In this document: in pieces, positions 4,309-25,239 of the stretch
How the letters are laid out: each line of letters begins with the position of its first letter
How positions within the stretch are numbered: the stretch's first letter is position 1
Source of the DNA: a virus
Length of the DNA: 25,239 bases
Virus record (IMG/VR): IMGVR_UViG_3300034093_003957
Coordinates: 1-25,239 of that record
Strand: one strand, 5' to 3'
The notes under the pieces: model-generated
Told to the model about the DNA's origin: nothing
What the model saw: only the letters and a program-made list of their open reading frames with translations
Databases searched by the model: none
Program-made: the position numbers and the translations under genes

Positions 4309-4395
4309 CGGTGTTTGGTATTCAAAATAAAAATAAAAAATGTAATATTATAAGATTAGAGGAAACAAAAGTAAAAACGGAAGTAAAATTTAAAG

Positions 4396-4431
4396 AATTA
4401 AAAAACAAATTAAAAAACAAATTAAAAAAAT
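4396..4431 (+). promoter_or_regulatory. Tandem A/T-rich 12-mers in the gene 32 leader, possible gp32 autoregulatory site
   Basis: Three tandem copies of a 12-mer (AATTAAAAAACA twice, then AATTAAAAAAAT) end 8 nt before the gp32 ATG. T4 gene 32 mRNA has AATTAAA-type repeats at the same place. There, surplus gp32 binds the unstructured leader cooperatively and shuts off its own translation. The resemblance in position and composition suggests the same control here. A plain translation-enhancing A-rich leader, common in Bacteroidota, is the alternative. Confidence 0.45.
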
Positions 4432-4439
4432 TAAGAAAG

Positions 4440-5408
4440 ATGAGTAATTTAGACATTTTCAATTTGGATGCAGAGGCATTCGTAACAAAAGTCCCAACAA
4501 CAGGAGGTGACAAAGATGATTTTTATAAACCATATCCAGAAGATGGTAAAGATGGTGTTTATAAATCATTAATTAGATTTATACCTAATTCAGAGAATCC
4601 TGCAAAATCAAAAATCCATAAGTATTATGTTTACTTGAAGGATCCAGTAAGTGGTGATGGATTTTCTGCTGACTGTCCTTCGACAGTTGGAAAAAAATCA
4701 ATATTAAAAGATTTATTCTGGAAGCTCAAGAATTCTCATTCTGCTGCTGATCAGGAATTATCTAAAAACTTCGCAAGGAAAGAGGATTTCTATTCACTTG
4801 TTCAGATTGTGCAAGATAAGAATAGACCAGAATTGGAAGGTAAGATTATGATCTTCAAGTTTGGTAAAAAACTTAATGATATGATCGAGGCCCAATTACA
4901 GCCAGAATATGGTGCACCATGTAATCCTTTTGATCTTTTTGAAGGGAGAGAATTTTCAGTAAGTGTAAGAAAAGTTGGTGAGTGGAATAATTATGATCTA
5001 TGCTCTTTTGTGGGTGAGAAAACATCGATTAAGATCGAAGGAAACTCAATGCAGAAAAATCAGAAAGATATGGACGTTATTCTTACGTATTTAAACGGAG
5101 GTCCTAAAAATCTAACAAACTTTGATTATAAAGATTGGGACGATGATCTAAGTGAAAAAATTATGAGCGTGATTAGAAATAGTGTACCTGAACAAAGAGT
5201 GCTTAATGAAATTTTAGGAGGATCTGCTTCGTCTTCATCCAGACCTGCAGCACCTGCTTCAGCCCCACAGAATAATTCTACTAATGATCTTTATGATGAG
5301 GTTAGTAAAACTAAAGTAAGCGGGTATGAAAACACACCTACTAGAGAAGCTGCACCAAGCACACCAAGTGCAACTAATTCATTAGAGGATCTTTATAACG
5401 ACCTATAA
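4440..5408 (+). CDS. 32: Single-stranded DNA-binding protein, T4 gp32 type
   Basis: I start the gene at the ATG at 4440 (322 aa) although the frame stays open to 4311. The upstream part encodes only Lys/Asn-rich low complexity from the leader repeats, and MSNLDIFNLDAEAF is the expected gp32-like beginning. The OB-fold core includes YKSLIRFIPN, GKIMIFKFGKKLNDMI (compare T4 GKVFKYRFGKKIWDKI) and GREFSVSVRKVGEWNNYD. The T4 zinc site is missing: one Cys (C79) remains where T4 has several ligands. A Ser/Ala/Pro/Asn linker (260-315) leads to an acidic C-terminal tail ending EDLYNDL, with a related DLYDE at 283-287. This tail is the usual interaction point for polymerase, primase and UvsY. It has its own terminators on both sides. 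Confidence 0.9.
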   Translation: MSNLDIFNLDAEAFVTKVPTTGGDKDDFYKPYPEDGKDGVYKSLIRFIPNSENPAKSKIHKYYVYLKDPVSGDGFSADCPSTVGKKSILKDLFWKLKNSHSAADQELSKNFARKEDFYSLVQIVQDKNRPELEGKIMIFKFGKKLNDMIEAQLQPEYGAPCNPFDLFEGREFSVSVRKVGEWNNYDLCSFVGEKTSIKIEGNSMQKNQKDMDVILTYLNGGPKNLTNFDYKDWDDDLSEKIMSVIRNSVPEQRVLNEILGGSASSSSRPAAPASAPQNNSTNDLYDEVSKTKVSGYENTPTREAAPSTPSATNSLEDLYNDL

Positions 5409-5465: not shown

Positions 5466-6530
5466 ATGCAGCTAGAAAAAATTGAACAAACTGTAAGGGA
5501 GATACTCGTAAAGGAATTTTCAAGAGAACCTAATAAACAAATAGTTTATAAAGCGGGAAATCGTTTGAATTTCTCGTGCCCTTATTGTGGTGATTCAAAT
5601 GATGGTAGAAAGAAAAGAGGTAATTTCTACATGGACACTCTAGCATATAAGTGTTATAATGGCGGATGTGGTATCTATAAAGATTCAATATCTTTCTTTA
5701 GAGATTTTTCCATGTACGGAAAGTTTAATGGTGAGGAGAGGGAGGAGCTAAGATCGATAATAGACACAAATAAAACAAAAAGAAGATCAGCCATAGGTAA
5801 GATAGACATAAGTTATTTTTTTGATAATGACATAAATGATCTATTAATACCAAGAGCAGATTTCATGAAGAAGCTTAGACTACAGGAAGTATTTGGTTCG
5901 TCTATACATAGATATGTTACAAGAAGACACCAGAAACCTGATATGAAGTTTGCATGGGATCCAAGAAAGGAGAGGCTTTTCCTTTTTAACCTGACCCCTG
6001 ATGAAAAAATAATTGGCCTGCAGGTTAGAAATATGAACTCTATAAAAGGCAGTTCAAAATATCTAACCTATAAGCTCAGTGGAATATATGAAAAACTTCT
6101 CAGAGTTGTTGATAGTGAATTTCTGGAGAGAGCTAGGGATGTGGATCCAATATCAAATGTTTTTGGTATCGGTAATCTTGATTTTTCAAATGATATAACA
6201 GTTTTCGAGGGACCCATGGATTCGTTCTTCTGGCCAAATTCGGTGGGACTTTGTTCTTTAGAAAATAGATTCCCATTTGATGTTGATAATAAAAGATATT
6301 TTTACGATTGGGATAAAGCAGGAATAGGGAAAAGCATGGACCTACTAAGTAAAGGCGAAACAGTTTTTAATTGGGGTAGGTTTCTGGAGGAAAATTCTAT
6401 AACAAGGAATAGAAAATGGGATTTAAACGATCTTGTTATACATCTAAGGGCGGTTGGAAAAAAAGTTAAAAGATTAGATAATTACTTTACGAATGACATA
6501 CTTGACCTCCGATATTTTATTAATGACTAA
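5466..6530 (+). CDS. 61: DNA primase, T4 gp61 / DnaG type
   Basis: This enzyme makes RNA primers for lagging-strand synthesis. An N-terminal zinc-ribbon is visible: CPYCGD (C38, C41) and CYNGGCG (C63, C68). The TOPRIM catalytic domain shows FEGPMDSFF (E248, D252) and YDWDKAGIG (D281, D283), followed by RKWDLNDLVI (residues 316-325), all usual for DnaG-family primases. Length, 354 aa, is close to T4 gp61 (342 aa). It begins just after the gene 32 terminator, and its stop is one nucleotide before the next start. The partner helicase (gp41) is not in the window. No Shine-Dalgarno is evident. Confidence 0.9.
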   Translation: MQLEKIEQTVREILVKEFSREPNKQIVYKAGNRLNFSCPYCGDSNDGRKKRGNFYMDTLAYKCYNGGCGIYKDSISFFRDFSMYGKFNGEEREELRSIIDTNKTKRRSAIGKIDISYFFDNDINDLLIPRADFMKKLRLQEVFGSSIHRYVTRRHQKPDMKFAWDPRKERLFLFNLTPDEKIIGLQVRNMNSIKGSSKYLTYKLSGIYEKLLRVVDSEFLERARDVDPISNVFGIGNLDFSNDITVFEGPMDSFFWPNSVGLCSLENRFPFDVDNKRYFYDWDKAGIGKSMDLLSKGETVFNWGRFLEENSITRNRKWDLNDLVIHLRAVGKKVKRLDNYFTNDILDLRYFIND

Positions 6531-7227: not shown

Positions 7228-7998
7228 ATGAATGTTTATAAAATAACAAATCTACTTAATGGGCTGATTTATATTGGACAGGAAAAAAATTATAATCCAA
7301 ATTACTACGGCAGCGGAATTTTAATTAAAGAAGCAATAAGTGAATTTGGTATTGAAAATTTTAAAAAGGATATTATAGAATATTATAATGGTTCTGATTA
7401 TAGAGAATTAAATAGAATTGAGATATTCTGGATCAAAGAACTTGATTCAAGAAATCCAAAAATTGGTTATAATCTTTCCGGCGGTGGTTCTCTTTTTATG
7501 ACAAGTCCAGAAATATCTAAAAAAATATCAGATACTTTGAAAGGAAAGTATGTTGGCGAGAACGCATTTAGACATGGAACAAAACTTACTGAGTATCATA
7601 AAAAAAGAATATCTGAAGCTAATAAGGGAAAGAATAAAAATATTACCGATGAGACGAGAAAGAAAATGTCGGAATCTAGAATTGGAATAAAGTTTACCGA
7701 TGAAACAAAAAAGAGGATGTCGGAATCTAAAATTGGTATTAATTTAAGGGATGAACATAGGAAAAAAATATCGGATGGGCTTAGAGGGCATTCAGTCTCA
7801 GTCGAAAGCAAAGATAAATTAAAAATAAGTAATATAAATAGAAAACAAAAGCATTCAAAAAGTGTTGATGCTATTAGGATAGATGGGACGGAGCAGTTAT
7901 ATTTCAATAATATTTCTCAGTGTGCTAGATATTTTAATGTTGATCGTGGTAAAGTAAGAAATAATACTATATCTGAATGGAATATGACAATAAATTAA
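7228..7998 (+). CDS. Free-standing GIY-YIG homing endonuclease with NUMOD3 repeats
   Basis: The N-terminal GIY-YIG domain shows VYKITN (3-8), LIYIGQ (13-18), a YYGSG loop, the catalytic Glu in ELNRIEIFWI (E65) and the usual end GYNLSGGG (80-87). Residues 93-195 carry about five DNA-binding NUMOD3-like repeats of the form (T)-D-E-x-(K/R)-K-(K/R)-(I/M)-S-(E/D)-x-(K/R)-x-G. The C-terminus (212-256) resembles a NUMOD1/IENR helix-turn-helix (ISQCARYFNVDRGKVRNN). It lies between the UvsY candidate and uvsW, both of which have their own ends, so it is not intron-borne. Free-standing genes of this type (T4 seg) spread by cutting genomes that lack them. Base composition is even more A-rich than its neighbours. 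Confidence 0.88.
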   Translation: MNVYKITNLLNGLIYIGQEKNYNPNYYGSGILIKEAISEFGIENFKKDIIEYYNGSDYRELNRIEIFWIKELDSRNPKIGYNLSGGGSLFMTSPEISKKISDTLKGKYVGENAFRHGTKLTEYHKKRISEANKGKNKNITDETRKKMSESRIGIKFTDETKKRMSESKIGINLRDEHRKKISDGLRGHSVSVESKDKLKISNINRKQKHSKSVDAIRIDGTEQLYFNNISQCARYFNVDRGKVRNNTISEWNMTIN

Positions 7999-8009: not shown

Positions 8010-9553
8010 ATGTTAAGATTTGAAATCTCATCAGACTCTCAGTTTTTAATATTGAGAGAATACACTGAGGAGGTGGAAAAAAATCAATTGGGGATTTCTT
8101 TAACACAGAAAATTCACAATCATTTTTTCCACCCCTTGGTGAAAAAAAAAAAATATGGAATGGCGATATCTGCTTTGTAGATAAAAAGGGGCCTATTTGG
8201 AGAGTACCCATTGGTTTATGGAAGGAGGTATTGGATATTGGTGAAAAATACAGGATAGACATTAAAATAGATGGATTGGATGAAATAGTATCTAATACTA
8301 TTACTCTTGAAAGTTTTACCCTGTGGGTTAATGAATTTTTTGATGGAGGAATAGGAGGAAATCCAGATAAGATGCCTAGAGATTACCAGATAGAAACTGC
8401 ATGGAAAATAATAAGATATAGATATTCAGTTTCCGAAGTAGCAACATCGTCAGGTAAAACCCTTATATCATTTATGATATTCGCTTATCTTAAATCCAAA
8501 GGAATGGTTAGAAAAATACTAATGATAGTTCCTAATTCAAATCTTGTTTTTCAGGGTAATGACGATTTCGAAGAGTATGGTCTTGATAAGCTGGATAGTG
8601 TTAAGATCCAACAAATAGGGGGAGGAAGTAAGATTAAGGACGGATGCGATATAATAATAGGTACTTATCAATCTTTAGTTAAGAGAGAATCCGATTTTTT
8701 TGAGGAAGTTGATTGCGTATTTGTTGACGAGGCACATCATAGCAATAGTGCATCTATAAAGAAGATAGTTTCTCAATGTATGCATTCCAAATGGAGATTT
8801 GGACTAACCGGTACATTAACAAAGAAAGGAACCGCAGATTACCTAACAATACAGCAATTTCTTGGTCCTTTGGTTATGGAGATACCACCAAGTTTTCTTT
8901 TTGATAATGGATATGCAACCCCTGTATCAATAAAGGTGGTTGTTATGGATTGGTTAGATCCAGTTTATAAAAACAAACTTGCAGATCTGAAACTTAGCGA
9001 TAATAACGTGGAGGGTAATGAAATCTATAATTTGGAAAGAAAACTGGTAATAGAAAGCAGAGTTAGATTGAACTATATTACAGATTTTATCAATAAGACA
9101 TCCAAGAATTCTTTAGTTCTATTCCAATCAGTGAAAGAGGAATATGGAAAGCAGATATGGAATCTTCTCAGAGAACTTAATGGCGATAGGGAGGCTTTTT
9201 ATGTCGATGGCGACACTAGTGAAGCATTGAGAGAGGAATATAAGAGAAGAATGTCAGTTGGCGCTAATAAGGTCCTAATTGCGACATATGGAACATTCTC
9301 CACTGGTATATCAATAAACAACTTGCATAATATATTTCTGGTTGAGTCATATAAAAGCGAGATACTTATAAAACAAAGTTTAGGTAGAGGTATGCGTAAG
9401 ATGGAGGGGAAAGAAAAAGTTAATGTTATAGATTTCGTCGATGATTTTAGTACAGGAAAGTATAAAAGTTATCTGACTAAGCATAGTCTTGAGAGGATAG
9501 AAATTTATAAGAAGGAAGGTTTTGAATATAGATTATATAACGTTAAACTTTAA
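8010..9553 (+). CDS. uvsW: UvsW-type SF2 helicase, N-terminal domain out of frame (-1 shift)
   Basis: ATP-dependent branch-migration helicase, as in T4. The uninterrupted frame is 8069-9553. It has Q-motif RDYQIETA, Walker A ATSSGKT, DEAH box VFVDEAHH, motif III LTGTL, motif V ATYGTFSTGIS, motif VI QSLGRGMRK, and ends YRLYNVKL like T4 UvsW (NYVMKTVNL). That frame has no ATG before DKMPRDYQ, deep in the protein. The UvsW-like N-terminus starts in another frame at the ATG at 8010 (MLRFEISSDSQFLILREYTEE) and stops at 8180 after 56 aa. One -1 shift at the A7 run 8077-8083 (slippery A_AAA_AAT) joins them into about 514 aa, against 503 for T4. The joined part FFNTENSQSFFPP...WNGDI fits the T4 N-terminal domain (FFSFEADGYRFNP...NWDGRI). 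Programmed shift, true mutation and homopolymer error all fit. Confidence 0.85.
8072..8133. repeat. 11-bp inverted repeat across the uvsW frame-change site
   Basis: GGTGGAAAAAA at 8072-8082 is a perfect inverted copy of TTTTTTCCACC at 8123-8133. The left arm contains most of the A7 slippery run and part of an AGGAGGT sequence (8068-8076), a strong Shine-Dalgarno match unusual in this window. In mRNA the two arms could pair around a 40-nt loop. Confidence 0.6.
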
Positions 9554-11103: not shown

Positions 11104-13137
11104 ATGGCAGGAATTAGTCATTTATATGATATTTATAACAAAAAGGGTAAAGATTTTATTGATAATCTCTTTAACTCCTATGTGACTATTAATGAGAAAA
11201 TGGATGGTTCCGCTTTTGTTTTTGAGAGAAACATTGAAACCGGTAGATTTAATTTTTATAAGAGGGATCAGAGATATCCTATAACTCTTGTTGATCGTAC
11301 ATTAATGAAATATTACGAAAAACCAATAAACTATATAGAGTCCTTACCCCCTCATATTCTTAGAGAGATCCCAAGAGGATGGAGATTTGGACTTGAGTAT
11401 TTTTCCAATAATCAGCCGGTTGAAATAGCATATGATAGATTACCAAAGAATAATCTTATATTGTCTTATGTCCACACTAAGAACGATAACGGTAAACCAG
11501 CATCCACTATACAGGATCAGGAACAGCTAAATAATTGGGCAGATATACTTGGCGTGGAAAGACCACCTATAGTATTTCAGGGTATGCTAACTGATGATCA
11601 GAAAAATCAGATACTTGATTTTCTTAGAACCCCCTTTGGTGATCTTGTATCGGAATTTAAAACAAAAAGTTTTGTTAGGTACATAATAGGTGTTCTTAAT
11701 CCGGAAGCTAAAACGAGTGCTCTTAATAATGATCTCGATAAACCAATAGAGGGTATAGTTTTCAGATTTGGAGAGGGCGATAATGGTAAAGAACCTATAT
11801 TATCAAAAATGGTCGATCCTGTTTTTACCGAGATGGCCAAGGAAAAATATAATAAAAAATCAGAGGAAAAGCCTAGTGATTTTCTGGGCCTTACCATAAT
11901 GGACATAATGAATTTTATACTCGAGGAGGGCGTTGAAAGTTTTAATGTTTCTGGTGATACTGATGATGAGAGATACATCTCCTTTATTTCTGATGTTTTT
12001 GTTAAATTTCTCGGTGAATATGCATATAAATACAGAGGAGCGGATTTTCAAGAACCCGATTACTTAAGGAAGGATGAATTTAGACTTAATCTGGATATGA
12101 TAAAGGATAAAAGAGTCCTTAAATATCTGGACACTGATGACTCCTACGAGTCATTGTTTAAGCTCATGCTTAATTCATTCAGAAAGATAAGAAAAAGAGC
12201 TAGCGGAATAATAACTACTGGCATAATAGATCAATTCAATATAGTAGTTAGTAACATAGAAAGAATTGTTACTGATAATAGAAAACCAAGTATACAAGAA
12301 TCTGAGTCTGTACCATCATTCATGGATTTTAAGAAAAGTAATTTATCTTCTAAGAAAATAGATTATGTAACTTCAGAATTAGATGAATCCGGCGATGAAT
12401 TAGAGGATGTAGATGATCCTTTCTATTCATACAATGAATTTATTTCCACACTGGAGACTATTGATACCACTAAAAAAGATAAATCGAAAGAAATAAAGGA
12501 GGAAGGTGAAACTGATAAAAACAAATTGGAACCTGTTAATTTGCTTGTTGGTAGATTCCAACCTTTCCATAATGGACACATGAAAATGGTTGATCAGTTA
12601 TACAAGGAAAATGATCTTCCTAGTATAATTGCGGTTGTTCATCCTGGACATAACAAATCAGGCAAATCCCCATATGACGAAAAATTAATATCACGCTATA
12701 TGGAGGGAATTGTAAGGGATAATCCTGGAAAAATATCTGGTTATTTTGTTGTTAATAGAGGCCTTCTTGGACCCATATATGGGAAAGCTAAGGAATATGG
12801 ATTTCTAACTAAAAGCATAGCAGCTGGTGACGATAGGATAGAAGACTACAATAAGCAAGCGGAATATCTTAAAAAGACAGGTGGTGATTTTCCAGACGAT
12901 ATAAAGATAATTCAAACAAAAAGATCATCGAGCGGAAGCGACGTTAGGAAAAAAATAGAATCTGAGGATTATACGGGATTTAAAAAACTAGTACCACAAG
13001 CGGTTGCTAATGTGTATAATTCTTTAATAGATGCACAAAGAGGAAATGGTATTAAGGAGGAGGAAGAAATTATTTTTCATGATTCCAACCTTGTAGCTGA
13101 ATCCGAAACACAAGAGATAATAAAAAATAACCAATAA
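11104..13137 (+). CDS. Fusion of RNA-ligase-like domain and NMN adenylyltransferase-like domain (677 aa)
   Basis: The N-terminal part has the nucleotidyl-transfer motifs of ATP-dependent RNA/DNA ligases: motif I EKMDGSAF (K32 as adenylylated Lys), motif III WRFGLEYF (E98), motif IV PIEGIVFRF (E216) and motif V LSKMVDP (K235). Residues 255-395 are helical with no recognised domain. A charged linker (398-475) is probably flexible. The C-terminal part is a HIGH-superfamily nucleotidylyltransferase: VGRFQPFHNGHMKM (483-492 motif), and SSSGSDVRKKI (608-618), matching the I-S-G-T-x-I-R motif of NMNAT/NadM. It follows the nucleotidyltransferase gene by 23 nt. Likely work: sealing or repairing RNA and making or recycling NAD+. 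Whether both domains are active is unknown. Confidence 0.85.
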   Translation: MAGISHLYDIYNKKGKDFIDNLFNSYVTINEKMDGSAFVFERNIETGRFNFYKRDQRYPITLVDRTLMKYYEKPINYIESLPPHILREIPRGWRFGLEYFSNNQPVEIAYDRLPKNNLILSYVHTKNDNGKPASTIQDQEQLNNWADILGVERPPIVFQGMLTDDQKNQILDFLRTPFGDLVSEFKTKSFVRYIIGVLNPEAKTSALNNDLDKPIEGIVFRFGEGDNGKEPILSKMVDPVFTEMAKEKYNKKSEEKPSDFLGLTIMDIMNFILEEGVESFNVSGDTDDERYISFISDVFVKFLGEYAYKYRGADFQEPDYLRKDEFRLNLDMIKDKRVLKYLDTDDSYESLFKLMLNSFRKIRKRASGIITTGIIDQFNIVVSNIERIVTDNRKPSIQESESVPSFMDFKKSNLSSKKIDYVTSELDESGDELEDVDDPFYSYNEFISTLETIDTTKKDKSKEIKEEGETDKNKLEPVNLLVGRFQPFHNGHMKMVDQLYKENDLPSIIAVVHPGHNKSGKSPYDEKLISRYMEGIVRDNPGKISGYFVVNRGLLGPIYGKAKEYGFLTKSIAAGDDRIEDYNKQAEYLKKTGGDFPDDIKIIQTKRSSSGSDVRKKIESEDYTGFKKLVPQAVANVYNSLIDAQRGNGIKEEEEIIFHDSNLVAESETQEIIKNNQ

Positions 13138-13141
13138 TAAA

Positions 13142-13687
13142 ATGCAAAAGTTTATTGAAACGTTTGATCAATTTACAAACCCAGTTAATGAAAGTGATGG
13201 GTTTGGTACTTCAGAATTTCTGATGAAAAAGGTGGGTGACATATACCACTATTTCTTTAGTCTTGATAGCGAGGATGAGGAGTATGAAATGGGTTACCAC
13301 CTTATCATAGGAAAATATTCGGAAAATGAACCTATAGACGGAGCTAAAAATTCCTATTGCGTTCTTAATATAAATCAAGTGGGTCATGAACTTATCGAGG
13401 ATATTGCTATCAATAAGGAGGATATACCAGCACCCGATTCAACCGAATTTATACTCGATGGTAATGAGCTTTCCAGATTAATGGAACATACATTCAAATG
13501 CGTTCTTGATTATCTTTCTCTAAATTCTAAGGTTACCCGAATATATGACGAGATCCAGAATAATCTGGTTTATAAGGGTAAGGGAGAATATATTGAATAT
13601 ATGAAATCCATATGTTTATCACAACTTGGTAAAAATTGGTCAGTTCAGGAAGGATCTAGCAAAAAATCATTAATTATAAGCAGATAA
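13142..13687 (+). CDS. Tagged acidic protein of unknown function (181 aa)
   Basis: It begins MQKFIETFDQFTNPVNESDG, again an F-x-x-F leader ending in V-N-E. It starts 4 nt after the ligase-NMNAT stop, so it belongs to the same run. The body is acidic with beta-rich segments (EMGYHLIIGKYSENE, KNSYCVLNINQVG) and a C-terminal helix. No motif is recognised. It may be a packaged late protein like its tagged neighbours. Confidence 0.6.
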   Translation: MQKFIETFDQFTNPVNESDGFGTSEFLMKKVGDIYHYFFSLDSEDEEYEMGYHLIIGKYSENEPIDGAKNSYCVLNINQVGHELIEDIAINKEDIPAPDSTEFILDGNELSRLMEHTFKCVLDYLSLNSKVTRIYDEIQNNLVYKGKGEYIEYMKSICLSQLGKNWSVQEGSSKKSLIISR

Positions 13688-13720
13688 GGGAACTTTTTAA
13701 AAAAATCTTGTATAATAATA

Positions 13721-13739: not shown

Positions 13740-13919
13740 ATGGAAAAATTCGAACAAATTAAGGCTCTATTAGAGCAAACACAAGGTGATGCTGAAAAAT
13801 TCTTCAGTAAAGGAAATAGTGCAGCTGGTACTAGAGTTAGAAAAGCTATGCAGGAATTAAAAGCACTTGCACAAGAAGTAAGAACTGAAGTGCAAGACAC
13901 TAAAAACAAAGAGGCTTAA
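13740..13919 (+). CDS. Histone H1-like (Hc1 family) DNA-binding protein, 59 aa
   Basis: This short gene reads MEKFEQIKALLEQTQGDAEK, then FFSKGNSAAGTRVRKAMQEL and KALAQEVRTEVQD. The core (G-N-x-A-A-G-T-R-V-R-K-A-M-Q-x-L-K) is characteristic of the small Hc1-type histone-like proteins found across Bacteroidota. Those proteins bind DNA and are about 58-60 aa, the length seen here. A phage copy could coat phage DNA in the head or at injection, or compete with the host copy to remodel the nucleoid. It has an A/T repeat leader suggesting high expression. It is the strongest host indicator in the window. Confidence 0.8.
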   Translation: MEKFEQIKALLEQTQGDAEKFFSKGNSAAGTRVRKAMQELKALAQEVRTEVQDTKNKEA

Positions 13920-13944: not shown

Positions 13945-14178
13945 ATGAGCTACTACTTAGCAAAAGTAAGATTTGAATCAGGAGAAGTTAAAAAGAATGG
14001 AGATCCAGTTTATACTATATCTCAATTCCTAGTTTCAGCAGAATCTGTATTAGACGTGGAAACGAAAGTTGCGTCTTATATGGAGGGAACACTAGGAGCT
14101 TTTGAAACCATCCAGGTTACAAAAACAAAAATAGAAACAGTCATATATGACAAAGAAAGATACGAAGACTCAATCTAA
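13945..14178 (+). CDS. DUF4494-like small protein (77 aa)
   Basis: The order YYLAKVRFE...NGDPVYTISQFLVSAESVLDVETKV resembles DUF4494, a family of short Bacteroidota proteins (typically W-F/Y-x-C-K-V-R-Y-E ... x-Y-L-V-D-A-x-S-F-T-E-A-E). The function of that family is not known. The match is from memory of the pattern and is moderate. The gene follows the histone-like gene by 25 nt. Its last 32 nt overlap the next gene in another frame, so translation of the two is probably coupled. Confidence 0.65.
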   Translation: MSYYLAKVRFESGEVKKNGDPVYTISQFLVSAESVLDVETKVASYMEGTLGAFETIQVTKTKIETVIYDKERYEDSI

Positions 14179-18064: not shown

Positions 18065-19471
18065 ATGATTATTGACATAGAGAATAAAGGGAGCTATCTA
18101 AACGTATCCCATTTCGGACCAGAAGGGGATCTTGCATTTCTTCATGTTCCGATAGCTGAGCAGGAAAGATTTAATTGGGAAAAGTGCAATCCTGGTGATC
18201 CTAAGAGGGACAAGGAATGGACCAATTGGAAGGGAGAACCAGTAAAGAAAGTAAAGACAGAGAGGTATGATAAGTACCGAATGGCACAGATTCTGATGGA
18301 GGCACCAAAGGAACTAACAAAACCTTTATGGGAATATCAGGAACCTAAGAAATACTTCGTCGATATAGAGGTTGAGATAACGGAGGATAAAGCAGCATCG
18401 CTGGATACTGAAAATGCTAAGAATCGGGTTATATCCATAGGTATAGGAACTGATAAAAGAAAGCTTCTAATTCTTGGACTTGATCCACTGACACCCGAGC
18501 AACAAGGAAATATTTATAATAAACTAAATAAGTATTTCGAAAAAACTGGCGATGAATGGAGTTTTAAATATAAACAATTTGAAACTGAGTACGATATGAT
18601 GTACACGTTCTTCCGAGAGCTTGGTCCTAAGATGGCAACAATGACTGGGTGGAACTGGCTTGGTTATGACTGGCCATATCTTTTAAATAGGGCTAAAAGA
18701 CTCGGTATAGATCCCAAGATTATATCACCAGGAAGAACACTTATAGGTAAGGCACAATTACCACAACATCTACTAATGTTTGATTACCTGGACATATATA
18801 AAAAATGGGATCGTGTTATCAAGATCAAGGAAAGCAATAGATTAGATTACGTTGCTGATAAAGCTGTTGGCTTCAAGAAGATTGCTTATGATGGGACACT
18901 TAGGGATTTATACCAATCTAACTTTGAAGATTTTATCTACTATAATGCTGTCGATTGTGCACTTGTACATTATATAGATCAGAAACTTAAAACGATGCAA
19001 ACTTTCTTCAAGATTGCAATGATATCTGGAGTTGAAATAAACAGGTGTCTTTCACCAGTTTGGTCTACCGAAGTTTTAATGATGAAGAAATTCTTGGATA
19101 GAAAGCAGGTACTTACAGCTGAAAGAAAAGAGGAGGTACATGTTAAATTTGCTGGTGGATATGTTAAAGATCCTATTAAGGGATTACACGGTTGGGTTGC
19201 TTGTTATGACTTTGCTTCTCTATATCCTAATGCCATGGTTCAATGGGGGATTTCACCAGAATCATACAAGGGAAAGAATCTTTTAAACCCAAAGGATAAT
19301 TGGATAAAATGTGCTTCCGGCGCATACTTCGGTAATGATGACGAGAATCCAATACTTAAAATAATAATTAAAGATCTATACTCGAGAAGAAGAAAAACCA
19401 AAGATAAAATGCTTGAATTAGAGCTAGAAATAGATGGTTTAAAAAAATTGTTGGGTAAAGAGAAAAATTAA
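18065..19471 (+). CDS. 43: DNA polymerase family B, N-terminal half (gp43A-like, split)
   Basis: The 3'-5' exonuclease is complete: Exo I FVDIEVE (D100, E102), Exo II WNWLGYDWPY (N197, D202), Exo III YYNAVDCAL (Y293, D297). It is followed by the GGYVKDPIKG loop and polymerase motif A CYDFASLYPNAM (D382). The protein then runs into the first fingers helix (LYSRRRKTKDKM, matching T4/RB69 VFNQRKEHKGYM) and stops at 468 aa, about half of T4 gp43 (898 aa). Motifs B (K-x-x-x-N-S-x-Y-G), C (D-T-D) and the thumb are absent, and no continuation is found in the following sequence in any frame. A second gene elsewhere must supply them if the enzyme works. The start ATG at 18065 follows an A/T-rich gap. 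Confidence 0.9.
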   Translation: MIIDIENKGSYLNVSHFGPEGDLAFLHVPIAEQERFNWEKCNPGDPKRDKEWTNWKGEPVKKVKTERYDKYRMAQILMEAPKELTKPLWEYQEPKKYFVDIEVEITEDKAASLDTENAKNRVISIGIGTDKRKLLILGLDPLTPEQQGNIYNKLNKYFEKTGDEWSFKYKQFETEYDMMYTFFRELGPKMATMTGWNWLGYDWPYLLNRAKRLGIDPKIISPGRTLIGKAQLPQHLLMFDYLDIYKKWDRVIKIKESNRLDYVADKAVGFKKIAYDGTLRDLYQSNFEDFIYYNAVDCALVHYIDQKLKTMQTFFKIAMISGVEINRCLSPVWSTEVLMMKKFLDRKQVLTAERKEEVHVKFAGGYVKDPIKGLHGWVACYDFASLYPNAMVQWGISPESYKGKNLLNPKDNWIKCASGAYFGNDDENPILKIIIKDLYSRRRKTKDKMLELELEIDGLKKLLGKEKN

Positions 19472-21052: not shown

Positions 21053-23251
21053 ATGTTTGTAACTAAAAGAGATGGCTCAAAAGAAGCTGTTAGGTTTGAA
21101 AAAATTTCAAATAGAATAAGAAAAATGACATACGGCTTAAATGTCGATTATGTTGATGCTATGGAAGTAGCTCAGAAAGTTATTGCTGGTATCTATGATG
21201 GTATAACCACACAGGAACTAGATAATCTTACTGCTGAGACTGCTGCTTCGTTAATACCTAGACATCCTGATTATTCCATATTGGCTTCAAGAATAGCAGT
21301 GTCAAGATTGCACAAAACGACCAAGAAGAAATTCTCAGAAACCATACAGGATCTATATGATTATATAAATCCAGAAACCAATGAGCCTGCTGGTATTATA
21401 AATGACCTCACTTACGAGGTTGTTATGAAGAATAAACAAAAGCTTGATGGTGCAATTATACATGAAAGAGATTTTGATTTTGAATATTTTGGATTTAGAA
21501 CTCTTGAAAAAAGCTACCTATTAAAAACCAATGGCCAGGTTTGTGAATCACCCCAGCATATGTACATGCGTGTAGCTGCGGGAATATGGGGAGAAGATAT
21601 AAAGAGCGTTATTAAAACTTATGAGCTTTTGTCTAATCATATGATGACACATGCAACACCTACATTATTTAATGCTGGTACGAAAAAACCACAATTATCA
21701 TCTTGCTTCTTATTGATGATGTCCGATGATTCGATTCCTGGAATTTATAAAACGCTTGCTGATGTAGCTGCCATATCACAGAATGCTGGAGGAATAGGTC
21801 TTGCTGTTCATAATGTGAGAGGTACTGGTTCTTATATCAGAGGTACGAATGGTACATCCAATGGTATAATCCCGATGCTTAAAGTTTTTAACGAAACCGC
21901 TAGATATGTTGACCAAGGCGGTGGAAAACGTAAAGGCTCGTTTGCAATCTATATTGAACCATGGCATTCAGATATTGAGGATTTCTTGGATCTTAGAAAA
22001 AATCACGGTAAGGAAGAATTTAGAGCTAGAGATCTTTTCTTAGCACTATGGACCCCTGATTTATTTATGAAAAGAGTGGAAGATGATAAGGAATGGAGCT
22101 TATTTTCTCCTTCCGATGTACAGGGACTTTGGGAATTATATGGTGATGAATTTGAAGCTGCATATGAGGCTGCTGAAGCTGCAGGTAAAGCTAAAAAAAC
22201 AATGAAAGCCAGGGATCTTTGGACTAGAATATTAGATTCGCAAATTGAAACTGGAACCCCTTATATACTTTATAAGGATGCTGCTAATAAAAAATCAAAC
22301 CAGAAAAATCTAGGTACTATTAAAAGCTCTAATTTGTGCACGGAAATATTGGAATATACGGATAAGGACGAGCAAGCTGTTTGTAACCTTGCTTCGATAC
22401 CTGTTAATAAATTCCTTAAATCTACTGATAATAGAACCTCTAAAATATCTAAGGGTAGATGTGAGGTTGATCACCAGGCACTTTATGATGTTGCATATCA
22501 GACAACGCTTAATCTTAATAAGGTAATAGACGTTAACTATTATCCAACACCAGAGACTAAAAAATCAAACATGAGACATAGACCTATAGGTATAGGTATT
22601 CAGGGCCTTGCTGATTTATTTGCAATTCTTGGTATTCCTTTTGCTTCACCTGAGGCTAAAAGAATCAACGAGGAAGTATTTGAAACAATATATTTTGCTT
22701 CTATGTCTTCCTCCATGGCACTTGCAAAAAAAGAGGGAGCTTATGAAACATTTCGGGGTTCACCCCTATCTAATGGTGAATTCCAATTTAACATGTGGGG
22801 ATTCAGTGACGAACAGCTATCAGGAAGATGGGATTGGGGTAAGCTTAGGAAGGATGTGATGAAGAATGGAGCAAGGAATTCTTTACTATTAGCACCGATG
22901 CCAACCGCTTCTTGTATTTTAGCAGAATCCAAAGTTCTAACTCCTGAGGGTCCAAAATCGTATATCGAAATAATGGAAGCCCAAGGTATAAACTGGAAAT
23001 CGATAGAGGAAAACGGGGATCAGCAGTGGGTATTTTTTAATTCACCAGTATCTGTAGAAACGAGATTTGGTACTAAGGAATGTGAAAAGATATTTTTTAA
23101 CGGGAAAGTACCAGTGTTTGAAGTCGAAACGGAGGATGGAAATATTATAACATGTTCGTATAATCATAAATTTTTATGTATTAGAGATGGTAACGAGATT
23201 TGGGTTAGAGCTGATGAACTTACTGAAAGAGATATGATTGTCCAACAATAG
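21053..23251 (+). CDS. nrdA: Ribonucleotide reductase large subunit, N-extein fused to N-terminal split-intein half
   Basis: Residues 1-620 are NrdA. They hold an N-terminal ATP-cone ([19 protein letters not shown]), the redox Cys in QLSSCFLL (C218), the active site NLCTEI (N427, C429, E431) and the partner Cys AVCNLASI (C444). The NrdA part ends LLAPMPTAS. From C621 the protein is an intein N-half of 112 aa: block [10 protein letters not shown] and block [13 protein letters not shown] (His 85 of the intein). It then stops at 23251 instead of continuing into NrdA. The remaining 210 residues of NrdA are encoded from 24490 behind the C-intein half. Trans-splicing would give about 830 aa, a normal NrdA length. 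It is 16 nt after nrdB. Confidence 0.93.
22913..23248 (+). other. Split intein N-terminal half (112 aa)
   Basis: It starts with Cys (first intein residue) after the extein residues PMPTAS and ends at a stop codon. The Hint-fold elements are C1, E-S-K-V-L at 5-9, beta strands around FEVETEDGN and the T-x-x-H-like block B CSYNHKF. The size is within the usual range for natural split-intein N-halves (about 90-125 aa). The insertion point is the conserved PTAS|TAQI site of NrdA, in the active-site region. Confidence 0.9.
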
Positions 23252-23273
23252 AAAAATTTTGGTCGGCATTGGA

Positions 23274-23281
23274 GATATATA
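23274..23281 (+). promoter_or_regulatory. GATATATA box before the intein-borne endonuclease gene
   Basis: Exact GATATATA in the 49-nt gap after the N-intein stop, with 19 nt to the ATG at 23301, the same gap as at 3215 and 9565. It could give the endonuclease and the NrdA C-terminal gene their own transcript. Confidence 0.55.
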
Positions 23282-23300
23282 AAAGAAAACATTAATCGAT

Positions 23301-24554
23301 ATGCAGACCAAAATTAATCCATCGTCTTATTATTGCAGATACCCATCGAAGATGGTGGATACAATATTTAGTAAATTTGACCTTTTAAATTCATCAGAAT
23401 CAAACTCATATTTCGAAAGATTTGAGAAATTATTAGAATTGAAAACATTAAATCCTTACTCTTCAGGTATTGAATACCATAAATTGCTGTATGGCGATAA
23501 TTTTGAAGAAATGTGGAATGAAAAAAATTCCAAAATAGTAACTCCATACAAGGAGGATTATTGGATGAGAATGGGATATACTATGGAGGAATCAACTAAT
23601 ATGGTTAAAAAATACAAAAAGGATAAATCAACAACGCTTGATAATTTTATTATTAAATACGGGAAAGATGAAGGTTATAAGCTCTTTGATAGTTTTAAAG
23701 AAAAATCAAAACAAACCCTGGATAAATTCAAAATTAGATATGGTGATTCCGGTATTGATAGATGGAATAACTATAAATTGACCAAAAATTCATGCTCTTT
23801 TGATTGGGCTCTCAGAAAATGTAACGGTGATATAGAAAAAGCAAAAATACTTTATTCAGATAGAATAGAATCCACTAAAATAGACAAAGATAAAAAAATC
23901 ATTGAACTCGGAGGGGAGGAGCAATATAATGATTACATTAAGGATTTGAATGAAAGGAAAAAAATAAATTTTAATTATTATCTCAAAAAAAATAACGGAG
24001 ATTATTTATTAGCAACAAACGAATATACAGAAATACTAAAAAGTAGGAGAGTCAAATTTGGTTCTGCTTCAAAAATATCCTTGTTATATTTTCTGCCAAT
24101 TGTTGAATATCTAAATCAAAAAAAAATTCGTAATTTTGTTGAAATTGAGGAAAGTAAACATTTTTTTCTTTATGATAAAATAAATTCGAGAAGCTATTGT
24201 TATGATTTTTGTATAATGGATTTTGAAACTAAGGCTATAATAGAATTCAATGGTATAAAATGGCACCCAAGACTGGATAAATATTCAATTGATGAATATA
24301 AAGGAATTTCTGTTTATTTAAAGACTGATAAAAAAATAAGAGAAGCACATGAATATGATATGGGAAAAAAAAGAATAGCGAAGGATAATGGATTTTCATA
24401 TCTGGTTATATGGGATAGCGATCCGGCAGATGTTAACATTAATCTAATCGAGGAATTTTTAAATAAAAATAAGATAAAATATAAATATAATGAAAACGAT
24501 AAAAATAAAATCATTAAGAAAGCTAGACCAAGAAAAACCAACGTGGGATCTTGA
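23301..24554 (+). CDS. Vsr-like (EDxHD) homing endonuclease between the NrdA halves (417 aa)
   Basis: The C-terminal 120 residues follow the pattern of very-short-patch-repair-like nucleases: CYDFCIMDF (D302), AIIEFNGIKWHP (E315, H322), then YDMGKKRIAKDNG and YLVIWDSD (370-374). This family is known from genes lying between split-intein halves. The N-terminal half has repeated Y-G-x-x-x-G/I-x-x-x-(F/W) units (IIKYGKDEGYKLF at 117-129, KIRYGDSGIDRW at 144-155), probably for DNA recognition. Its likely target is intein-free nrdA. The gene has its own promoter-like box, and its last 65 nt overlap the start of the C-intein gene in another frame. It is richer in A than nrdA, as expected of an invader. 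Confidence 0.85.
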   Translation: MQTKINPSSYYCRYPSKMVDTIFSKFDLLNSSESNSYFERFEKLLELKTLNPYSSGIEYHKLLYGDNFEEMWNEKNSKIVTPYKEDYWMRMGYTMEESTNMVKKYKKDKSTTLDNFIIKYGKDEGYKLFDSFKEKSKQTLDKFKIRYGDSGIDRWNNYKLTKNSCSFDWALRKCNGDIEKAKILYSDRIESTKIDKDKKIIELGGEEQYNDYIKDLNERKKINFNYYLKKNNGDYLLATNEYTEILKSRRVKFGSASKISLLYFLPIVEYLNQKKIRNFVEIEESKHFFLYDKINSRSYCYDFCIMDFETKAIIEFNGIKWHPRLDKYSIDEYKGISVYLKTDKKIREAHEYDMGKKRIAKDNGFSYLVIWDSDPADVNINLIEEFLNKNKIKYKYNENDKNKIIKKARPRKTNVGS

Positions 24555-24606
24555 AGTTCCTGATGTTCATGAGTATTTGTTAGAAAATGGTATGGTTTCA
24601 CACAAC
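24490..24606 (+). other. Split intein C-terminal half (39 aa)
   Basis: It runs from its own ATG (MKTIKIKSLRKLDQEKPTWD) to the terminal Asn at 24604-24606, followed by Thr. The block F pattern W-D-L-E-V-P-D-V-H-E-Y-L and the H-N end are those of an active Hint C-terminus. The length matches natural split-intein C-halves (about 35-45 aa). Confidence 0.9.
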
Positions 24607-25239
24607 ACTGCTCAGATTATGGGTAACAACGAAGCATTCGAACCATTCACCTCTAATATATACACAAGAAGAACGCTAAGTGGTGAGTTTATCATAATAA
24701 ATAAACACCTGGTTAAGGATCTTATTTCTCTTGGATTATGGAGCGAGGATATGAAAAACCTAATAGTTTACCATAAAGGATCTGTTCAACATATAGAACA
24801 GATACCTGAAAATGTTAGAGAAATTTATAGAACTGTTTGGGAAATTAAACAAAAAGACCTGATAGATATGTCCGCAGGTAGGGGTAAATTTATATGCCAA
24901 TCACAATCTCTTAATTTATTTATAGAGAATGTGAATTCTGCTAAATTAACTTCTGCACATTTCTATTCATGGAAAGCTGGTCTTAAAACGGGTATGTATT
25001 ATTTAAGAACTAAAGCAGCGGTTGATGCCCTTGCTGGACTTGGTATAGATATGGAAAAAACTAAAAATTCCATGAAAGAATCTGCGATAAAAGCAACACC
25101 GGCTGAAGTTACTAAACCTGTTAATGTTAAAATTAATGGAATGACTAGCGAAGAACTAAGTAAAGCAGCTGACGATGTTCTGGAAGGAGTTAGTTGTTCG
25201 TTGGATTCGCCAGATCAATGCGATATGTGTGGCTCATAA
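24490..25239 (+). CDS. nrdA: C-terminal split-intein half fused to the C-extein of NrdA
   Basis: Residues 1-39 are the intein C-half, ending in the block F/G residues EYLLENGMVSHN with the penultimate His and terminal Asn needed for splicing. Residue 40 (Thr) is the +1 extein nucleophile. Residues 40-249 continue NrdA exactly where the first part stopped (TAQIMGNNEAFEPFTSNIYT). They include the radical-path tyrosines GMYYLRTK (Y170, Y171) and the C-terminal redox pair CDMCGS (C244, C247). The start ATG at 24490 lies inside the endonuclease gene. The stop is the last codon of the window. Confidence 0.93.
   Translation: MKTIKIKSLRKLDQEKPTWDLEVPDVHEYLLENGMVSHNTAQIMGNNEAFEPFTSNIYTRRTLSGEFIIINKHLVKDLISLGLWSEDMKNLIVYHKGSVQHIEQIPENVREIYRTVWEIKQKDLIDMSAGRGKFICQSQSLNLFIENVNSAKLTSAHFYSWKAGLKTGMYYLRTKAAVDALAGLGIDMEKTKNSMKESAIKATPAEVTKPVNVKINGMTSEELSKAADDVLEGVSCSLDSPDQCDMCGS

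Follow-up and report, generated by a model that had tools for sequence, protein, structure and literature searches.

Which role a small protein of the Hc1 family plays in a phage, and how the phage came by it, is the question raised by the hc1-like gene at positions 13740–13919 (+ strand; ATG at 13740, TAA at 13917–13919) of the DNA analysed here, a whole IMG/VR virus record of 25,239 bases that is referred to as the window. A preliminary description had presented the 59-residue product as a phage-borne Hc1 histone-like protein close to the consensus of Bacteroidota hosts, recently captured, suited to DNA compaction or to taking the place of host chromatin protein, and indicative of the host phylum. 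When compared with Pfam, the product matched the Hc1 profile PF07432 over its full length (profile positions 1–57 of 57; E 1.6e-25; 89.1 bits, cut-off 23.5) with a score inside the range of the best chromosomal copies from Bacteroidota (about 87–94 bits); the profile search did not place the protein outside the Hc1 family, and this part of the description is confirmed. A search of PHROGs gave no meaningful match to the 59-residue protein. Comparison of hc1 with its homologues in the relatives L002, L004 and L005 revealed 8, 16 and 13 silent codon changes, respectively, versus 2 amino-acid changes each, and this 4- to 8-fold excess of silent changes among the nearest phage relatives indicates purifying selection. 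The profile score, the purifying selection and the presence of the gene in at least 588 related viral stretches exclude a chance match.

That the gene is borne by a phage is evident from the IMG/VR virus record itself and from the T4-like replication genes and a tail-tube-like protein gene in the window, detected with PHROG, Pfam and NCBIfam profiles. The + strand encodes a gp32-like single-strand DNA-binding protein (SSB; 4311–5408; phrog_224, 2e-33), a DNA primase (5466–6530; phrog_47, 2.4e-20), a DNA helicase (8231–9553; phrog_16, 7.3e-73; Pfam ResIII, 5.7e-23) and the 468-residue N-terminal piece of a family B DNA polymerase (18065–19471; phrog_2062, 2.2e-69), and the window also contains a ribonucleotide reductase gene. 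Closest to the polymerase is that of LR756500, a 462-kb metagenomic phage (39% identity), followed by those of other huge phages and Prevotella Lak phages (about 29–34%). The polymerase gene comprises this N-terminal piece alone and is followed by an unrelated gene, a situation also found in the short polymerase family phrog_2062. Upstream of hc1, also on the + strand, lie a gene for a 677-residue protein with weak RNA-ligase-like N-terminal and cytidylyltransferase-like C-terminal parts (11104–13137; PF01467, 24.7 bits; PF09414, 21.7 bits) and a gene for a conserved 181-residue protein (13142–13687) that gave zero Pfam or PHROG matches. Downstream on the same strand, a conserved 77-residue protein (13945–14178) showed a weak, sub-threshold similarity to the C-terminal half of DUF4494 in Pfam (23.9 bits, cut-off 27).

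In order of conservation, 166 distinct phage and bacterial Hc1 sequences showed F21, A29, G30, R32, R34 and R48 at 100% at printed precision and D17, N26, T31, Q38, K41, Q45 and K55 at 98% or more, and the window protein has all six of the former, the family core residues of the sampled set. The motif GNSAAGTRVRKAMQ was found in the window protein and is common to the bacterial copies. The pattern GNxAAGTRVRKAMQ is the core of the whole Hc1 family, and its identity between phage and host is due to this family-wide invariance and not to a recent transfer; it says nothing on how recently the gene moved. Near-identity to the host consensus thus holds for the motif and not for the whole protein, whose identity to the 80 best chromosomal copies nowhere exceeds 68%. 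A single-chain AlphaFold2 model predicts a two-helix hairpin (H2–24 and H27–58) with a mean pLDDT of 95.7. Helix 2 displays a nearly invariant stripe with heptad spacing, R34-Q38-K41-Q45-R48-(Q52)-K55, which is probably exposed, judging from how it is phased against the hydrophobic positions. No solved relative of the protein was found, and a fold comparison of the predicted hairpin gave no significant match; the small terminase of phage 44RR and GINS, which appeared at E about 0.5–1.3, were taken as generic helical hairpins.

The chlamydial protein after which the family is named uses its N-terminus for dimerisation and its Lys-rich C-terminus for DNA binding (PMC2848022; PMC3469542). The window protein resembles the N-terminal module of chlamydial Hc1 (HctA) and ends at residue 59 without the Lys-rich DNA-binding part; with the NCBIfam HctA model (NF051889), it scored 20.3 bits against a cut-off of 100, and positions 7–50 of 121 alone were aligned. 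Its net charge is just +1, and non-specific DNA binding is therefore not expected from charge alone. Values range from -3 to +4 in the wider jumbo-phage set, from -2 to +2 in marine phage copies and from 0 to +7 in chromosomal copies, the phage charge being slightly lower than that of Bacteroidota chromosomal Hc1 (median +2 versus +3). As the protein has no Lys-rich tail and is near neutral, DNA compaction, or replacement of host chromatin protein, by simple analogy with a histone is weakly founded, and the compaction reading is not supported. For a comparison of working mode, with no homology claimed, T4 DsbA may be mentioned, a small phage-encoded DNA-binding protein of about 10 kDa that is coupled to the late-transcription gene 33 (PMC2988020). 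Within the library of papers searched, no study was found on the function of Bacteroidota Hc1 or of tail-less bacterial homologues.

An IMG/VR search with hc1 retrieved at least 588 relatives, the best 80 of which include contigs of up to 434 kb and close phage relatives whose protein is 73–97% identical to that of the window. In 27 of them (L002–L028) the gene occupies a fixed slot between homologues of the 181-residue gene (51–83% identity) and of the DUF4494-like gene (61–99%), and other genes of the neighborhood show 28 to 99% identity. As these relatives had been picked through hc1 itself, a second IMG/VR search was performed with the 677-residue neighbor as query, which is blind to hc1, and the count was limited to contigs extending 1 kb or more downstream (n=69). 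Downstream of the 677-residue homologue, whose identity falls to 39% in this set, hc1 was present in 67 of the 69 contigs; in the other two the contig ends after 1.2 and 1.8 kb, and similarly divergent relatives have hc1 at 1.2–4.8 kb and 2.3 kb. From these data, it is evident that hc1 is an old gene that this diverse jumbo-phage lineage keeps almost universally and in a conserved position. PF07432 had been noted in Bacteroidota-linked jumbo phages, the moraphages, with genome compaction offered as speculation (Perez-Hernandez et al., November 2025; PMC12619734). The moraphage protein belongs to the same Pfam family and its phages likewise are jumbo phages with predicted Bacteroidota hosts, reaching 307 kb versus up to 434 kb for window-lineage contigs among the best 80 of at least 588 relatives (PMC12619734). 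New here are the near-universality within the lineage, the case against recent capture and the missing tail, as well as a conserved promoter-like element and a pairing of SSB and hc1 genes in separate marine phages.

Among 296 sampled Bacteroidota genomes, 177 carry a PF07432 Hc1. The chromosomal copies resemble the phage protein in length (57–67 residues in the set used), in their full-length domain match and in the invariant residues, and differ from it in identity, in genomic setting and in lying on the opposite side of the tree. The closest are mostly Sphingobacteriaceae and Cytophagales-type copies. The tree with host proteins that the preliminary description had proposed for naming the donor lineage was based on 59 usable columns and is poorly resolved; phage copies did not nest among chromosomal ones. 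When long-branch rows were left out, a single change separated phage from chromosomal labels, and with 14 divergent phage copies added the same split was recovered (SH-aLRT 90); an initial tree had placed a single long-branched phage row (L194) among bacteria, a position that is untrustworthy. In the AU test, a single jumbo-phage clade was not rejected (p 0.41).

A recent capture from a Bacteroidota host living today, the reading suggested by the preliminary description, could call upon the shared core motif, upon a family score in the bacterial range and upon the AU test, which left a grouping of jumbo phages with Sphingobacteriaceae/Cytophagales-type copies unrejected (p 0.138, 59 columns). 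Against it stand, mainly, the near-universal occurrence in the phage lineage and the identity of at most 68% with chromosomal copies versus 73–97% within the same phage lineage, and furthermore the confinement of every chromosomal copy to a single side of one branch, as well as the flanks of chromosomal hc1, which by eye have nothing in common with the phage locus. On prevalence, identity and tree we reject recent capture as highly improbable. At the chromosomal loci L083 and L119, hc1 lies near genes that by eye resemble dapA and ligA.

The start codon of hc1 in the window is preceded by 23 bp, and before these by a promoter-like element (13689–13716, + strand) consisting of GGAACT (13689–13694), a 16-bp spacer and TATAAT (13711–13716). 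The pattern G(A/G)AAC – 16/17 bp – TATAAW was encountered 21–29 bp before the hc1 ATG in 27 of 28 sequences (the window and 27 relatives) with diverging spacers, and also in 57 of the neighbor-ascertained contigs with Hc1, a recurrence to be read as conservation and not as a probability because these relatives do not count as independent samples. Counted over both strands of the entire window, the two-part pattern was observed 5 times versus about 1.5 times expected by chance. These data suggest that hc1 is under its own putative promoter. Some relatives have a TATAAAT-type box upstream of hc1 that looks like a T4-type late promoter. However, TATAWATA-like strings in the AT-rich window occur at chance level (203 versus 196 expected), so that the claim of a T4-type late promoter was dropped in favor of the two-part element, whose position is conserved.

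With respect to the host, the leaders of genes in the window and in its relatives are rich in A and contain few Shine-Dalgarno-like sites (2 of 24 genes in the window). Bacteroidota typically lack Shine-Dalgarno sites, and on account of these leader sequences the window phage likely infects a member of this phylum. The host proposed in the preliminary description is therefore likely, whereas its argument that Hc1 identifies the phylum does not hold, because a cyanophage and phages with Shine-Dalgarno-type leaders also carry Hc1. The latter form a separate marine lineage of 46 contigs (L029–L081 without L030, L033, L037, L038, L040, L041 and L049), in which 27–67% of the genes have Shine-Dalgarno-like sites and hc1 follows a gp32-like SSB gene, at 0.5 kb or less in 45 of the 46 contigs and at 1.7 kb in L061. 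An example of the SSB gene followed by hc1 is L045:6768–8168. Megablast of one marine relative matched no annotated phage, and the helicase and SSB of this relative indicated no clear host. Distant Hc1 copies were detected in a marine single-cell virus, 1.5 kb from its own SSB gene, and in the Synechococcus phage S-SRM01, where the protein annotated as 'Histone H1' (QPX48246.1) is likewise encoded by a phage gene and has an identical core motif; it differs in its cyanobacterial host and is distant (51% over 35 residues). The 'histone H1-like' family name and an identical motif thus show neither DNA compaction, nor recent transfer, nor host phylum.

As to function, we tentatively favor, at somewhat less than an even chance, a small, probably dimeric factor of this phage lineage that is accessory to the replication machinery and consists of a free-standing Hc1 N-terminal module. 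The 59-residue hairpin would dimerise like the matching domain of chlamydial Hc1, and the Arg/Gln/Lys stripe of helix 2 (R34-Q38-K41-Q45-R48-Q52-K55) would face nucleic acid or a partner bound to it. Expressed from its own promoter during infection, the protein might work on phage DNA inside the cell, alongside the machinery for replication and recombination (SSB, primase, helicase, polymerase). The T4-like replication genes around hc1 and the SSB-hc1 pair of the marine lineage point in this direction, as do the fixed slot, the prevalence of 67/69, the invariant stripe, the high-confidence hairpin and the conserved promoter-like element. Against it count the low net charge, the genes adjoining hc1 in the window, which have no known function, and the lack of a solved relative or significant fold match. 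Gene proximity is weak evidence here, the SSB gene of the window being 8–9 kb from hc1. A wider proposal, that tail-less Hc1 is a recurrent phage replication accessory working with gp32-type SSB through the stripe as partner-binding surface, is suggested by several phage lineages, distinct from one another and probably differing in their hosts, that keep hc1 next to or close to genes for SSB and replication; we consider it doubtful. If true, it would give a function to the tail-less members of a bacterial 'histone-like' family.

A role in the virion or in packaging, by which the protein would compact phage DNA in the capsid or en route to it, is suggested by the family name, was raised by the moraphage authors for the same Pfam family (PMC12619734) and would suit the likeness of the TATAAAT-type box of some relatives to a T4-type late promoter. 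However, TATAWATA-like strings are no commoner than chance in the window, the neighbors of known function are replication and not packaging genes, and the protein lacks a Lys-rich tail and has a net charge near zero; we regard packaging as quite improbable. The phage copy might instead pair with host Hc1 in mixed dimers, through a shared dimerisation surface, and thereby remove or re-route the host protein; in favor of this are the 177 of 296 Bacteroidota genomes with Hc1 and the core motif, which is identical in phage and host copies. However, the bacterial copies are likewise short and tail-less, and the phage copy therefore lacks the look of a truncated inhibitor, and the gene is also kept by a lineage whose leaders do not look like those of Bacteroidota; host takeover by this route seems unlikely. 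Equally, a small adaptor or RNA-binding factor that makes no contact with DNA would be in keeping with the near-neutral charge and with a hairpin that resembles many unrelated helical hairpins and gave no significant match, and 'histone-like' would then be an accident of naming, derived from a chlamydial tail that is absent here. The invariant Arg/Lys/Gln stripe and the linkage to SSB and replication genes speak against this possibility, to which we give a low probability. For the question of what the tail-less form does, a phage lineage that keeps the Hc1 module in nearly every member, and behind a promoter-like element of its own, gives clean genetic access.

Among other observations, an intein-like stretch apparently splits the large subunit of ribonucleotide reductase (21053–25239), roughly after residue 621; it scored 21.5 bits with TIGR01445 (N-terminal region), under the cut-off of 24.5; a separate ORF of 417 residues (23301–24554) lies inside, and the next ORF contains the apparent intein end followed by ribonucleotide reductase sequence. 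The ORF at 7228–7998 resembles by eye a GIY-YIG-type homing endonuclease and looks mobile, because among 27 close relatives only L026 and L027 have a homologue (64%) at the same place. Finally, the homologue of an 86-residue gene at window position 14147 is tandemly duplicated in L007, L022, L023, L026 and L027, about 400–600 bp past hc1.
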